This document shows, piece by piece, positions 11,795 to 47,959 of a DNA stretch of 64,000 nucleotides. Position 1 is the stretch's first letter; every line of letters begins with the position of its first letter. This stretch comes from Lophium mytilinum (Eukaryota > Ascomycota > Dothideomycetes > Mytilinidiales > Mytilinidiaceae), in assembly GCA_010093605.1 (NCBI GenBank), contig MU004184.1:515897-579896 (forward strand). Direction: 5' to 3'. A program made the position numbers and the translations under genes. The notes beneath the pieces were generated by a model. That model was not told where the DNA came from and did no database searches. It saw nothing but the letters and a program-made list of their open reading frames with translations.

Positions 11795-13678
11795 CTAGCA
11801 GTTTTGCCCAGGATACGGGCACCACTTCTTGCTCTTCGTCTCCGTGGGCTCCGGCTTTTGGGAGGGCACGTGGCACTTCTGGCCGGGGTACGGACACCAT
11901 GGCGCCTTCGTGCTCGTAGGCTCCATGGTCGGGGTAGGTTGTGGGGCGTCGCTTTGCTTCGTGCTCCAAGTGATTATATTTGAGGGCTTTGCGGACGAAG
12001 AAGCGGGGGTTGGGGTAGGCTTCTTCGAACTTGGTGCATGGCTTGAAACTGACATCGAACTCGGCGTATGGCTGGCAGCCGACTTCGAGCTCGGCGCATG
12101 GCTTGAAGCTAACTTGGCGCTGGAGGTTGGCTTTAAACTAGCACTATGTGCGGAATTCTGCGTTGAGACGTCAGCAATGCAGGCTTCTGAGGCGGGAGGG
12201 GAGGCGAGTGCGTACCTAGTCACAACAGGGATGCTGGGACTCGGGTTCTCGTCCACTACCAGCCCTTCCCGCACGCGTTCCGCATTCTTGTGGTTGGCAG
12301 AGGGGGTGATGATGGGTTCAGCGGAGTAGTGAAGCCCAGTGAAAGCACCAACGGCCGGTGAGGGCTCGGCCCTCCGTTCTCCGACAATGTGGGTGAGAGT
12401 CCTAGGCGGGACGTACTTGGATGAAGAAGGGGGTGGTGGTGGTGGCGGTGGCGGCGGGGTAGATTTGGGTGGAGGGGGTGGAGGGGGTGTCGACGACGTA
12501 GTAGGGCCCAAGCTGAAGGTATACGAAACCTTCGCCGGCGCGGTGGGTGGGTGCTCCACATGACCTGAGGGAGTTGACAAGTACGTTACGACAGATCCTG
12601 GCGAGGTGGCGATTGGTAGTCCGCACTCGAAGATCGTAGACGGCGGCTTGGTCGACACGATGGTCACTGGCTGCAGGTTTATCGTGGGGACAATTTGGGG
12701 TCCGTTCGTGAAGAGTTTCGAGAGCAGTGGATTAACAGCGTCTGATTTGTCTGCCCTGCGGAAGTCGCGAGGATGGTGAGCCGTAACAGACGCCGCTGGG
12801 ATGTTTATCTTCGATTTCAGTTCCGCAAGGGCACTGCCTGTGACTGGGATAACGACGATGGCTGTGCTGTGAGAGCTAGAGCTACTGTGGGCCGGCGTTG
12901 GTTTTGGGCTCGTTGGCTGTTTGCTACTGGAGGCCATCGACGCGGCAGGGTTGGTATTCGAGGGGTAGAGGATGGTGAAGAAATCACTAGACTGCGTGCT
13001 GACCGGCGGCTTAACTGGGGCAGATGACGGGGGTAGCATAGCACTTCCAAGGCTTGAGCCATGGGATAGAGTCAACCTCGAGTACGCCAGTGGATTGTTG
13101 GCTGCAGGCTTGCTGGAGGCTGAATTGCTGGTTGCAGGCTTGCTAGCCGCTGGAGTGCCGGTCGCAGGCTTGCTAGCCGTGGAGTTGCTGGCCATCGGGA
13201 TGCTTGGGGCTAGTGTCGCCTTCGACGCTTTACAGTAGCTTCGATTCGAAGACTGGGTGCTCGGCTTCCACGTATACTTGGGGAAGGGTAGCGACGACGG
13301 GGTGACAATGGAAGAGGCTGAATAATGAATGCCGGAGAATCCGACACGGGATGCCGACACAACAATTGTTGGTGAGTCGACGATGCTCTTGCTGTTGGAG
13401 TTCACAGATTGAACAGATTGGATGGTAGCCGGGGGAGGCACCTGGAGCTGGCCGTTTGATATTTGAGTCACAGGAAGGAGACCTGCTGAGAGAGCACTCT
13501 GCGAGGCGGTGACGGTTTCAAAGACAGTGTAAAACGATGTCTTCGTTGGCGTCGCGACTGGGACTGTTACTACCTGAGTAACGGTCACAACGGTTTCGCC
13601 GGCTTGTCGGGGCAAAACAGCTGCAGAATTGGCCAACTGAGTGGCCAAGAGGATGAGGGAAATAACGACTAGAAACAT
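11795..13678 (-). CDS. Secreted Ser/Thr/Pro-rich protein with two C-terminal alpha-pheromone-like peptides
   Basis: Single exon, 627 aa, ATG at 13678. Residues 1-20 form a signal peptide (MFLVVISLILLATQLANSAA). The body is low complexity: Ser/Thr/Val tracts, SKPA-type repeats (about 169-197), long proline runs (398-417) and SHAPSSK repeats (526-553). A related block occurs twice: GIHYSASSIVTPS at 116-128 and GLHYSAEPIITPS at 448-460. The extreme C-terminus carries WCPYPGQKC (594-602) and WCPYPGQNC (619-627), the second directly after Lys-Lys and ending at the stop codon. The Trp-Cys-x3-Gly-Gln-x-Cys pattern is that of filamentous-ascomycete alpha-type pheromones such as WCHLPGQGC. Other dibasic sites lie at 307-308 and 435-436. 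Size is large for a pheromone precursor, so it may be a Kex2-processed repeat protein or cell-wall protein. Gene real: high confidence; pheromone role: moderate. Confidence 0.8.
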   Translation of the reverse strand: MFLVVISLILLATQLANSAAVLPRQAGETVVTVTQVVTVPVATPTKTSFYTVFETVTASQSALSAGLLPVTQISNGQLQVPPPATIQSVQSVNSNSKSIVDSPTIVVSASRVGFSGIHYSASSIVTPSSLPFPKYTWKPSTQSSNRSYCKASKATLAPSIPMASNSTASKPATGTPAASKPATSNSASSKPAANNPLAYSRLTLSHGSSLGSAMLPPSSAPVKPPVSTQSSDFFTILYPSNTNPAASMASSSKQPTSPKPTPAHSSSSSHSTAIVVIPVTGSALAELKSKINIPAASVTAHHPRDFRRADKSDAVNPLLSKLFTNGPQIVPTINLQPVTIVSTKPPSTIFECGLPIATSPGSVVTYLSTPSGHVEHPPTAPAKVSYTFSLGPTTSSTPPPPPPPKSTPPPPPPPPPPSSSKYVPPRTLTHIVGERRAEPSPAVGAFTGLHYSAEPIITPSANHKNAERVREGLVVDENPSPSIPVVTRYALASPPASEACIADVSTQNSAHSASLKPTSSAKLASSHAPSSKSAASHTPSSMSVSSHAPSSKKPTPTPASSSAKPSNIITWSTKQSDAPQPTPTMEPTSTKAPWCPYPGQKCHVPSQKPEPTETKSKKWCPYPGQNC

Positions 13679-14818
13679 TTTGATGCGTTGCTGAAATGAT
13701 TAACGAGTGTTGGGGAGTATATCAGATATAGGTCAACTATTACGGACTTGAGTAGGATCAGGAAGAACGACAAGAGGAATGGAGCTTTTTGATGATATAC
13801 GTCTAGTCATGAACAACAATAGGAAGCAGGCCTTTGTCCTCCAGAATACAATCGGCTCATGATTCAATGACATTATGCCCCGCATCGGCCTTCACTGTGA
13901 GATGGTATTCCTTTCAGCCCCAAACGCCTACAAAGAAGACAAAGAGCTGAAGCAATGCCATGTACATCAGCCGAAGCTATATTTGCAACAGCTGGTCGAA
14001 TCGGAATCCTCAAAAGCATCGGGGGTAGGGAAACGCCGCCAGCACCTTTAGAAACCGGACTCCTACCACATTTGCGGGTAGTATAATGAGTGCTATGAAT
14101 GAAGAGCTCAGATGCCAAGGATGCAGCTGCCTCACGCTTCTAGTTCAGATCGCCGCCTTGAATGGCAGCCAGCGGACTGCATGAGGAGCCAATGCCGAAC
14201 AAGAGAAGCACAGCTCACCTAAAAGAACTCGACCATGGCTCGCCATTGTGCTTCACAAGCACTCAATAATACTTGCAGATAGCGGGTGGCGAAGCTTCGA
14301 TAGTCGTGATGAAAGCAGAGTCAACACGCTGGAATGCCGCTAAGGCGCCATCGTAGGCGTCAGTGACACTTCACTTTGGAAACCATGGTCAGATTTGGCC
14401 CTGGCGTGTATGGATCATTCTTATGGTAGAGTTGATCGAGCTGGGAGGTTTTGGGGTGGCACACTAGGCTGGTGAAGGTCGTAGATAGCGTCTCGGGTCG
14501 TGGCAGGCAAGATACAGAATCTAATGCAGGAAACACAAAGCCAAAAGGGACAGCCGTGATGAATGAAGCTGGCGACCGCCTCCCAAATCGATGACAAGCA
14601 CACATTGGTGGTGTTGAGGTGGGTCGCCGTCGGCCAATGAGTGGCACTGCAATGAACTGACCGCCAAGACACGGTAGCGGCAGCGTCGAATCTTGCGAAG
14701 GAGCAAGTGCACCCAACGTCTCTCCTCTAAGCCGAGCCACCTCCTCCACCACGACCCGCCGACCCCCCAATTGACCCTCTCCGCTCCTCTCCCGGCTTTG
14801 AGCCAGCTCGACATCACA
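13679..14818. other. Divergent intergenic region
   Basis: About 1.1 kb between two diverging genes. Reading frames here, including a 208-codon minus-strand frame that overlaps the cytochrome c1 promoter and first exon, show no domain or codon support. No repeats were recognised. Confidence 0.45.
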
Positions 14819-44054: not shown

Positions 44055-47000
44055 CTACATCAAACTTGACCGGCCCCCAATCTCGCTTCCTCCTTGTCCA
44101 CTAGGCATTTCCCCATTCCTCCCGACCACAAACTCACGGTATATACCTGCCAGTCGTCTCCTCTCCTGCTCTGAAATACTACTCCTTGTGCTTGCAAGCG
44201 AGCTTTTGATATGCGGCCACTGAATCTCAGGCTCCTTGTTTTCAGGCTCCTCCTTAGATCCAGTCCCATCCGCATCCTGCTGCCCATGCAAATGATTCGC
44301 CAGCTTCTGCTTGCGTCGAATAGCCTGGAGGCTCGCGAGTTTGGCCGCAATAGCCGCACGTTCAGAGAGCGCCACAGAAGACGGCATCGCGTTATCCCCC
44401 GTAGCAGCGATAGCGTCACCGAAGCGGAAGTGAACAAAGTCGGGCGCGGAGCTCTTGTCTGATTTGCCAGACTTGGATGTCGTGCCGTTCACGGCTTTCT
44501 TGGCCTTTGAATCCTCGCCGATCTCAGGTACATGGTCACCAAGGACGTCGTGGATGGCCTCGAGTTGCGCGTTGTAGACGACGGCTTGGAGGTCGGCACC
44601 TGAGTAGCCCTCGGTGCGTTGAGCGATTTCGCGGAGATTCTCGCCTTCATGACCGGTTGTGAGGACAGAGGGCGCGAGACGAAGCTTTCGCGTCACAGCT
44701 GTGAGGATGTCTATCCGCTCCTCCAGGCCTGGCAAGTCGCATATGAGGCTCTTGTCTAAACGTCCTGGTCGAAGTAAGGCTGGGTCTATAAGGTCTGGGC
44801 GACTGGTGGCGGCAAGTACGTAGACGCCGGACAGGCCCTCGGCACCGTCCATCTGTGTGAGCAGCTGATTGACCACTCGGTCTGTGACGCCGGTGGAATC
44901 GTGTCCACGCTTTGGAGCAATACTGTCAAACTCGTCAAAGAACAAGACACAAGGCCGTGCGGCTTCAGCGCGCTCGAAGAGGTCACGGACCGACTTTTCG
45001 GAAGCGCCGATGTATTTGTTTAGGATCTCGGGCCCCTTTACGGAGATGAAGTTGAGGCCACATTCTCCGGCTACAGCTGATGCGAGAAGAGTTTTTCCGC
45101 AGCCGGGGTACCCGTATAGGAGTAGACCGGACCGCAAACGAAGAGGGCACTGGGCAAATATAGGAGCATAGGTGGTCGGGTACTGAAGAGTTTCGAGGAG
45201 AGTTTGACGGGTTGAGTGAAGACCGCCTATAGAGTCCCAGCGTGTTGTCGAGGATTGAAGGGTAACATTGCGGAGCGAGGCTGGTGTAAAGCCAGCTAGG
45301 GCGCTAGTAAAATCATCTTTGGAGAGCACGATGGATGTAGAGGATGAGCCACGAGAGTCGGAGTGCGAGTATGTTTCACTGACTGATCGAATTAGAGCTT
45401 CGCTGCGAGCGCGGGAACTGAGCAAGACCAAATCACCAGGCATGTAGCCATCGGTAAGGCCGGCTAGGTCGAGGAAGTCAATGCTGGGATCGACAACGAA
45501 CCCATCGGCGTCAGAAGCAGGCTGGGATTCGTATTGACCGGATGTACTAGGCCGACTGCCAGAGGTAGAGCTGCCAAGGAAAGAGTCGTCGTTATTTGAA
45601 TATCCGTTCAGTCTCGAGTCGTCTGCTGCTGGTTTTGCATCTTTATGCACTAGCATCTCTAGTACTCGCCTTCTGCCTTCTTTATTAGGTGCCTTGAGGC
45701 TGACAATTTCCCGAACGACGTGGCCGCCAATAATGACGTTATTTAGAGCTTCCTTGCTCTGGGCTGTTGCAAGGAGAACCACCCCGGAGTCTATCGAGCA
45801 GTACTGCTTCACAATAGAGCAAAGACCCTCACTAATGTGGCGGCTTCGGCCGTTTTCTCCTCCCACCTGAAGCTCGGTCTCCACTGGACAAAGCCTGTCG
45901 AGATCATCAAGGATCACTAAAGCTCTGCCCCCTAGTCGGGCACCCCATGATGCGCACGAAAAAAGGCGATTCAGGGTATCTTTGATTGTTGATACTCGTG
46001 TCTCGTCCGTCACGAGCTTGCGGCATGGATAATAGGTGACGTTGAAAAGACGCTCGGATCGCAGACTGTGTGCCAATAGATGGGTAAGGCTGGATTTGCC
46101 CGCTCCGAGCCCTCCAGTCAACAACACTGATGAATTGTGGGATAGATGCCCAGTGAGTTGTTCGATCAATGGATCAATTCCCACCATTGTCGGCGCAGAG
46201 CTTGGTATTGGCTCACCAGGAGATAAACCCTTCAGGGCATTCGAGGGTCTTATAATCTCAGGCAGGACTTCGATGGAAAACTTCCTCTCGGTGCCCAGAA
46301 ACCAAGCTGGGGGAGCTTTGATCCCGTCCGCTGGTTGCTGTTGCGGCGGCTCAAACCTCACAATTCCACCCTGCCAGCCCTTTTCTGCATCATCCAAGGA
46401 TGACAGAATCATACCGTCCGTAATCGGGCCATCCAGAAGTCCAACCCCCTGTGGGCTTTTGCCATACATTCTCTTGATTCCTTGGGAGGCTTCTTCTCGT
46501 TCCTGTTTGGACTCGCCCCCGAATTTGAGAGTTGAGCCTGGCTGCGAGTTTGTCGATGCAAATGGCAACACCTTTATAGCTTTTACGCCAGCATCCTTGG
46601 ATCCGGGAGGTTTGACCATAGACGACGGCTTGGCGGCTTGGGTGGGTGCTCCTTCAATCCGTACAAGTCCGCCCACGAACTGTTCAGAGCAAAGCACTTT
46701 GCAAAGAGGTGAGGACAACGCAACGTGCCGACTATCAGGAGCGTCCTCCCAGGCCTGGATGCGCGCAACGACCCTGTTGGCTGGTTTCTCGGTCTCTTGT
46801 TCCTTCTGCACGTCCACAGGCTCTTGTAGACCTGCTGGCTTCACAACAGAAACTAGAACCCATGTTACGCCTCTTAATTCCCTCGTCAGAAGCATGTCCC
46901 GATCCACCCAGACTTTGAGGCCCTCGTTCCTTTCATCTTCTTCCTCATCGAACCATTCCCCTGCTAGTTCTCTATCCACCCCACGTAGAAATAGGGCACC

Positions 47001-47959
47001 TTTGCTGGATGATTCATCTCTACCACTTCGTCGCCGTACAGTACTTGCAGAGCTTTTCCCACCCGCACTTCTGCGGCTTGTTCCACCGACACTCCTGCTT
47101 GCTCGATCGGAGTTCCGCTCTGATTTCTGTCGCGTTTTAGGTGCTACTATGACCTCGGCGTCGGGGGATATTTTGACAAAGGCTGACGAAGGAGGAGGCG
47201 CTGGGCTAACAGAGGTGACAGTTATATTGGCAGTAGTCGTAGGCGATAGATGGAGCGTCAATGGGTGTGGAGGCTGGCGCTGGCTTTCTGATGAAGGAGT
47301 ATATGCTGGATTTGGTAGCGCACGTATTTGGGCGAGGAAGTTGAGTTCCAAGAATTGAGCATGCAGTTCAATCACTGAGTGGGAGTGGTCAGTAAGTAGT
47401 CTTATAGAAGAGCAGTGCGGAGAACATACTTTCCCAGTCTGCAGGAGTCAAAGGCTCAATGTTGATAGTATGCGCCTGAGGGGGGTCTACATGGAGTAAA
47501 ATGCCGACCTTTTGGCCCTCGACGAGTCCTAGTAGCCGTCCATACGTTGCATCTACTTCCACAACTGCCACGTCTTGGTCCCTACTCACAGCACTTCCTC
47601 TGCTGCCACTCAGGCCATCCCTACCCACGACCGACGCAAGTTTGCGCTTGCTCTGCATGCCTGTCCATCCCGCAAAGACTGACTTTTGGACCGGAGAGGT
47701 ACCCTTGGCGTCTGCACCAGGAGGGGGAGGTTGGCGATAGTTGAGCTCGAGGACGACATTCTGCGCGATCTGTATTGCATAAGTTTGTGCGCATTCAATC
47801 CCATGGTTCGTGTGAGAGCAGTAGACGTACAGTATTCGCATTCACCAAGACCGAGACGAGGGAACCAGGGAGATTGACCAGACAGTTCTTTAACGACTGG
47901 ATGAGAGCAACCTCAGCTTGCACAGCCTGGCCGCCCGGCCTCTTCGCCGCTGGAGCCAT
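44055..47959 (-). CDS. PEX1: Peroxisome biogenesis factor 1 (AAA+ ATPase)
   Basis: With PEX6 forms the hexameric motor that extracts the ubiquitinated import receptor PEX5 from the peroxisomal membrane. Three exons: 47959-47831, 47769-47430 and 47374-44055; introns 61 and 55 nt; 1262 aa, usual for the family. The N-terminal domain has LKNCLVNLPGSLVSVLVN and VVLELNYRQPPPP. The first ATPase domain has GGLGAGKSS at about 577; the second has GYPGCGKTLL at about 911, Walker B LFFDEFDSIAPKRG at about 967, and the second region of homology ATSRPDLIDPALLRPGRLD. Junctions (ADWEMIELHAQFLELN) match fungal PEX1. Its start codon lies 312 bp from that of MCM7, pointing the other way. Confidence 0.96.

Follow-up and report, generated by a model that had tools for sequence, protein, structure and literature searches.

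The locus and its open reading frame

The window analysed here is a stretch of 64,000 nucleotides on contig MU004184.1 (positions 515,897 to 579,896, forward strand) of Lophium mytilinum, whose genome is assembled as 43.18 Mb in 24 contigs; unless stated otherwise, coordinates are positions in this window. L. mytilinum is a dothideomycete of the order Mytilinidiales, placed in the Pleosporomycetidae, to which the Pleosporales also belong. On the minus strand, the single open frame described in an earlier note on this DNA was borne out, and it encodes a protein of 627 amino acids (P0001).

11795..13678, minus strand: putative alpha-type pheromone precursor P0001, an open reading frame of 627 codons plus stop
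13622..13678, minus strand: signal-peptide-like start MFLVVISLILLATQLANSA, assigned by inspection of the sequence

The start codon is surrounded by ATCAAAATG. On inspection, the N-terminus MFLVVISLILLATQLANSAA resembles a signal peptide, in line with the earlier proposal, and the public gene model starts 50 residues further upstream. The body that had been called rich in serine, threonine and proline proved to be so by count, with 111 Ser, 94 Pro, 65 Ala and 63 Thr among 627 residues.

The protein gave no match to Pfam at E-values up to 1 and none to NCBIfam, and in the 43.18-Mb genome its own gene was the only match at E-values up to 1. A protein search in which the best 7,986 candidates by shared words were scored returned one match, its own shortened public model (BU16DRAFT_261838, hypothetical protein, L. 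mytilinum), and no homologue beyond it among those candidates; a second search yielded two candidates, neither of which matched at E-values up to 10.

The neighbours with Pfam matches are ordinary genes, including HSP20, DAHP synthase, an AP_endonuc_2 TIM barrel, cytochrome c1, cyclin, SRP54, ubiquitin hydrolase, an aspartyl protease, a PEX1-like AAA protein, MCM7 and an FG-nucleoporin, while 18 of 30 neighbouring frames have no Pfam match at 1e-3. We know of no pheromone synteny that these neighbours would support. Elsewhere in the window, a 440-codon open frame without a Pfam match (46036-47355, plus strand) lies antisense to the PEX1-like AAA gene (44058-47447, minus strand).

Two nonapeptide copies and their possible release sites

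The C-terminal end of the frame holds two nonapeptides, at the residues where the earlier note had placed them and preceded by the dipeptides that it had named.

11873..11899, minus strand: copy 1, WCPYPGQKC, residues 594-602 (translation and genome motif screen)
11798..11824, minus strand: copy 2, WCPYPGQNC, residues 619-627, the C-terminus (translation and genome motif screen)
11900..11905, minus strand: Ala-Pro, residues 592-593, possible dipeptidyl-peptidase (Ste13-type) site ahead of copy 1 (sequence)
11825..11830, minus strand: Lys-Lys, residues 617-618, possible Kex2 site ahead of copy 2 (sequence)

Both copies conform to the pattern W-C-x3-G-Q-x-C, which is thus present in copy number two. 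Neither flank of copy 1 has a dibasic site. Copy 2 has Lys-Lys directly ahead and abuts the stop codon, with no Ste13 dipeptide; Lys-Lys is a lesser Kex2 site by the site rules given in the survey of Kex2-processed repeat proteins, KEPs (PMC6339444). A clean candidate site for Kex2-type release is found only at copy 2. The protein contains only four dibasic sites in 627 residues, at 307, 435, 552 and 617, of which one adjoins a copy. It therefore lacks the regular Kex2-separated units of a repeat protein of this kind, and the alternative raised in the earlier note is not supported in that form. That the peptides come from a Kex2-processed repeat protein and signal outside mating is, in our view, very improbable. 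Non-mating KEP peptides and pheromone-like KEPs of Basidiomycota are described in the survey (PMC6339444), but here there are two copies only, with one flanking dibasic site, and the motif is that of alpha pheromones.

The two copies differ at 6 of 27 nucleotides, five of the changes being silent and one a Lys/Asn replacement. In a neutral simulation with six changes placed at random, the chance of at most one replacement was 0.0006, 0.0013 and 0.0024 at kappa 1, 2 and 4, respectively, figures that are uncorrected for the fact that the stretch had been picked beforehand for its similarity. Since five of the six differences are silent, the comparison points to selection for the peptide. The hexapeptides EPTSTK (residues 586-591) and EPTETK (610-615) ahead of the copies are alike at 14 of 18 nucleotides at a one-residue shift, and among 19 offsets tried for the 48 nucleotides ahead of each copy, the best gave 26 of 42 alike; the copies thus belong to a longer duplication that includes the hexapeptides. 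Eroded flanks, as suggested by the strict register (13 of 48 nucleotides alike), were ruled out by the 14 of 18 at the one-residue shift. Because the flanks are not eroded, there is no need to assume an old duplication, and the silent changes alone carry the case for constraint.

Repeats within the body and the tail

11873..11899 and 11798..11824 are not the only repeated units of the gene.

13292..13339, minus strand: internal repeat unit 1, FSGIHYSASSIVTPSS, residues 114-129 (sequence comparison)
12296..12343, minus strand: internal repeat unit 2, FTGLHYSAEPIITPSA, residues 446-461 (sequence comparison)
12025..12107, minus strand: 10-residue (30-nt) tandem repeats in the Ser-rich tail (repeat scan)

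The two HYSA units, 332 residues apart, differ silently in eight codons and by replacement in six, and their differences at the first, second and third codon positions number 6, 1 and 11. Judged from this pattern, the body seems to hold a kept module of its own, as would suit a structural protein bearing a pheromone tail. The gene has two arrays of 30-nt tandem repeats, in which the differences by codon position are 4, 6 and 10 in the tail and 10, 6 and 6 in the body.

These repeats bear on the possibility that the protein is a cell-wall or adhesive glycoprotein, in which C-terminal WCPYPGQxC hairpins would be small disulphide modules that bind or cross-link the wall, with nothing excised and a merely convergent likeness to pheromones. 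The chain is mostly low-complexity Ser/Thr/Pro/Ala sequence with 10-residue tandem repeats, the unrelated HYSA repeat is likewise rich in silent changes, copy 1 lacks dibasic flanks, and dibasic sites are few, all of which such a protein would accommodate. Even so, we regard it as unlikely, given that the pheromone motif is matched at every fixed position in both copies, that Ala-Pro or Lys-Lys abuts the tryptophan, near the Ala-Pro and Lys-Arg of canonical precursors, and that the genome has a Ste2 gene, yet gave no other precursor in the motif screens described below.

The public gene model, its intron and the coding status of the tail

The public model (P0002) has 545 amino acids and neither nonapeptide. 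It is identical to residues 1-488 of the open frame, continues with IPHIVLV, and carries 50 further residues upstream.

12158..12215, minus strand: 58-nt intron of the public model, GTACGC...GCTGAC...CAG (model comparison and splice-signal scan)
12144..12215, minus strand: alternative 72-nt in-frame intron that shares the donor and ends at acceptor CATAG (computed, found by the loose rule only)

The 58-nt intron has the donor GTACGC, a branch-like GCTGAC and the acceptor CAG. The peptides are lost from the public model because removal of 58 nt shifts the frame and the protein stops seven residues on. The acceptor of the 72-nt form lies 14 nt further along, and by computation this form would yield 603 amino acids with both peptides kept. 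Applied to 12,030 nt of Pfam-backed open frames, the strict intron rule found one site and the loose rule five acceptors; since such signals are this rare, the 58-nt site could well serve as a true intron in some transcripts. Splicing usually takes the first AG after the branch point, which favours the 58-nt form if the intron is spliced. No other finding weighs as heavily against the pheromone reading as this well-signalled intron, whose removal drops the tail; with the tail spliced out of the public model, its translation is doubtful.

At the other end of the public model, an intron-like stretch with TTTCAG at its end links the 50 extra residues to the remainder (approximately 13679-13990, minus strand). 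The extension would hide the signal peptide, and the stretch may be a 5'-untranslated intron.

On balance, the silent changes between the nonapeptide copies, together with the composition and openness of the tail, suggest that the tail is coding, short of proof. Its frame is open for 139 codons, with a probability of 0.012 by composition shuffle, and one antisense frame is also open across it. Ser, Pro, Thr, Ala and Lys make up 68% of the tail in the frame of the protein, whereas the two remaining sense frames have 43% and 33%, and the composition of the tail matches that of the body. The codon score was 0.010 for the tail frame and 0.012 for the body; another sense frame scored 0.159 despite its three stops.

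If the 58-nt intron were always removed, the protein would end at residue 495 and the peptides would be absent from it, the tail being 3'-untranslated sequence or the decaying remnant of an older pheromone gene. The use of this intron in the public model speaks for such an arrangement, as do its good donor, branch-like site and acceptor, given that strict signals occur once per 12,030 nt of Pfam-backed frames. It is nevertheless rather unlikely in our estimate: the tail is open for its 139 codons, though with the open antisense frame, it has the residue bias just described, the differences between the peptide copies are mostly silent, and the model that uses the intron also has the N-terminal extension that hides the signal peptide.

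A further idea, which we hold to be doubtful, is that, through a shared donor and two acceptors separated by 14 nt, splicing sets whether the protein carries a mating signal. Use of the 58-nt intron would then give a 495-aa wall-type glycoprotein without the peptides, and the unspliced transcript (627 aa) or the 72-nt intron (603 aa) would give a tail-bearing pheromone precursor. A structural glycoprotein would in that case double as a pheromone precursor.

Genome-wide screens for other precursors, the receptor and mating-type genes

The DNA pattern for W-C-x3-G-Q-x-C occurs at 10 places in the 43.18-Mb genome, compared with 3 in the reversed control, and the only closely spaced pair among the 10 is formed by the two copies of the present gene, 75 bp apart in the same frame. 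The excess over the control and the single close pair in one frame place the pair beyond chance. The remaining eight places comprise four with a stop inside the motif (L002, L004, L009 and L010), three in short single-copy frames (L003, L007 and L008) and one, L006, where a single WCCYSGQNC lies in a Cys-rich frame of 78 aa whose start is hydrophobic. This last frame (positions 1351-1587 of L006) is a small secreted-looking Cys-rich frame in its own right, and its match to the pheromone motif would be by chance or convergent.

The earlier note had proposed a search for further proteins of this pattern and had regarded a separate canonical precursor elsewhere in the genome, together with loss of the peptides in close relatives that keep the gene, as evidence against a pheromone role. 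Run genome-wide, the search found no other multi-copy frame in the 43 Mb, and the motif screens, to which intron-split motifs and pheromones of a different shape are invisible, gave no separate canonical precursor. Related patterns added none: W-C-x3-G-E-x-C had 9 places (5 in the reversed control), C-x3-G-Q-x-C-K had 6 (3) and C-x3-G-Q-x-C-W had 2 (2), none in a multi-copy frame, and the Pleosporales core PYGxPxG, searched as PYG[LM]P[IV]G, had 0 places in the genome. The loose pattern W-C-x3-G-x2-C had 200 places, compared with 126 in the reversed control, from which no cluster count was drawn. A made-up multi-copy pheromone query gave no candidates in the genome and missed the present gene itself, and is thus not a valid negative.

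The Ste2 receptor gene is present as two adjoining segments without stops, which match PF02116 with E-values of 7.5e-84 and 3.7e-5 and cover model positions 1-244 and 245-279 of 280. The yeast alpha-factor repeat profile MF_alpha (PF04648) matched neither the 627-aa protein nor the genome; this is not telling, because the control genomes were silent too and two multi-copy precursors compared below (P0003 and P0004) also had no match. The MATalpha_HMGbox profile likewise found nothing in the genome or in the control genomes.

Discussion

We propose that the product of this gene is secreted and serves L. mytilinum as the precursor of an alpha-type mating pheromone with two cysteines, a reading to which we give a probability of roughly 0.57. 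An alpha-type precursor, oddly long and with few copies, is the best available reading. The pheromone precursor suggested in the earlier note is supported in part, by the motif, the silent changes, the lack of a better candidate in the motif screens and the presence of Ste2; the release of copy 1 and the translation of the tail stay in doubt.

From a tail-bearing transcript, the signal peptide would take the chain into the secretory pathway, where the long Ser/Thr/Pro-rich body may serve as an O-glycosylated pro-region or as a cell-wall stalk. A Kex2-type protease would cleave behind Lys-Lys 617-618 and release WCPYPGQNC, presumably closed by a disulphide, whose C-terminus would need no additional trimming. 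Copy 1 would be freed less cleanly, perhaps with dipeptidyl-peptidase trimming at Ala-Pro, or may act uncut, or may not be freed. The peptide would then signal via the Ste2 receptor of the partner.

If this reading is true, the gene provides a candidate alpha pheromone for Lophium, for which none turned up in open-access papers and one protein set. It would also mean that alpha precursors may take the form of long, mucin-like proteins whose signal sits at the extreme end, and that such signals can be lost to splicing in automatic gene models. Lophium is not a member of the Pleosporales, where the pheromones have a quite different core, PYGxPxG, and the evolution of pheromone and receptor in this part of the Dothideomycetes would become testable with one peptide and one receptor.

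Comparison with known pheromones

Neither WCPYPGQ or its variants nor Lophium mytilinum together with a pheromone was found in the open-access literature; the accessible main text of the KEP survey does not name Lophium, and its supplement may list relatives of the peptide (PMC6339444). A paper covering the Mytilinidiales reports, in the part available, genes of the pheromone response pathway in Cenococcum and Glonium.

A protein search with a made-up multi-copy query, in which 228 candidates were scored, found two precursors of 336 amino acids each, with nine (P0003) and eight (P0004) copies of WC-x3-GQ-P/T-C; the latter is JDV02_003504 of Purpureocillium takamizusanense, named in part 'Clock-controlled phe'. 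In both, AP, EP, DP, EA, SP or KR stands ahead of the tryptophan, and KR, RR or RK behind the copies. They resemble the L. mytilinum protein in the signal-like N-terminus (by inspection), in the WC-x3-GQ-x-C copies and in the Ala-Pro before the tryptophan of one copy each, as in copy 1 here. They also share a dibasic pair ahead of the tryptophan of the last copy, Lys-Arg there and Lys-Lys here. They differ in having 336 residues with nine and eight copies, each with a dibasic site behind, as opposed to 627 residues with two terminal copies, the first of which has no dibasic flank.

The alpha pheromone of Paracoccidioides and Histoplasma is WCTRPGQGC, present in one copy, although most species have two or more; the Paracoccidioides gene contains an intron and was unannotated as such in public models, and a receptor assay with the peptide in yeast has been done for Paracoccidioides (PMC3464258). 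The likeness lies in a nonapeptide of the same pattern in few copies, and the difference in a Lys-Arg site, as opposed to Lys-Lys here, and in the absence of a long Ser/Thr/Pro-rich body from the descriptions in the available part of that paper (PMC3464258). In the Sclerotiniaceae the peptide is WCGRPGQPC, and typical Leotiomycete precursors are reported to have 89-446 residues and 2-18 copies (PMC10569646). With 627 residues and two copies, the present protein falls outside this size range, in accordance with the unusual size remarked on in the earlier note. Atypical Leotiomycete precursors without adjoining Kex2 sites exist (PMC10569646), and HPP1 of Trichoderma reesei, another pheromone precursor and an a-type relative, still supported fertility once its Kex2 sites had been removed (PMC3068285). 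Since HPP1 without these sites retained fertility, a poor Kex2 site does not rule out function.

Within the Dothideomycetes, the alpha pheromones of Pleosporales are described as carrying the PYGxPxG core (PMC6339444); they are alpha-type pheromones of other members of the class, and their core has no place in the L. mytilinum genome. In 13 dothideomycete species, the KEP survey found two-Cys pheromones, which belong to the same class as the peptides described here, with two conserved cysteines (PMC6339444).
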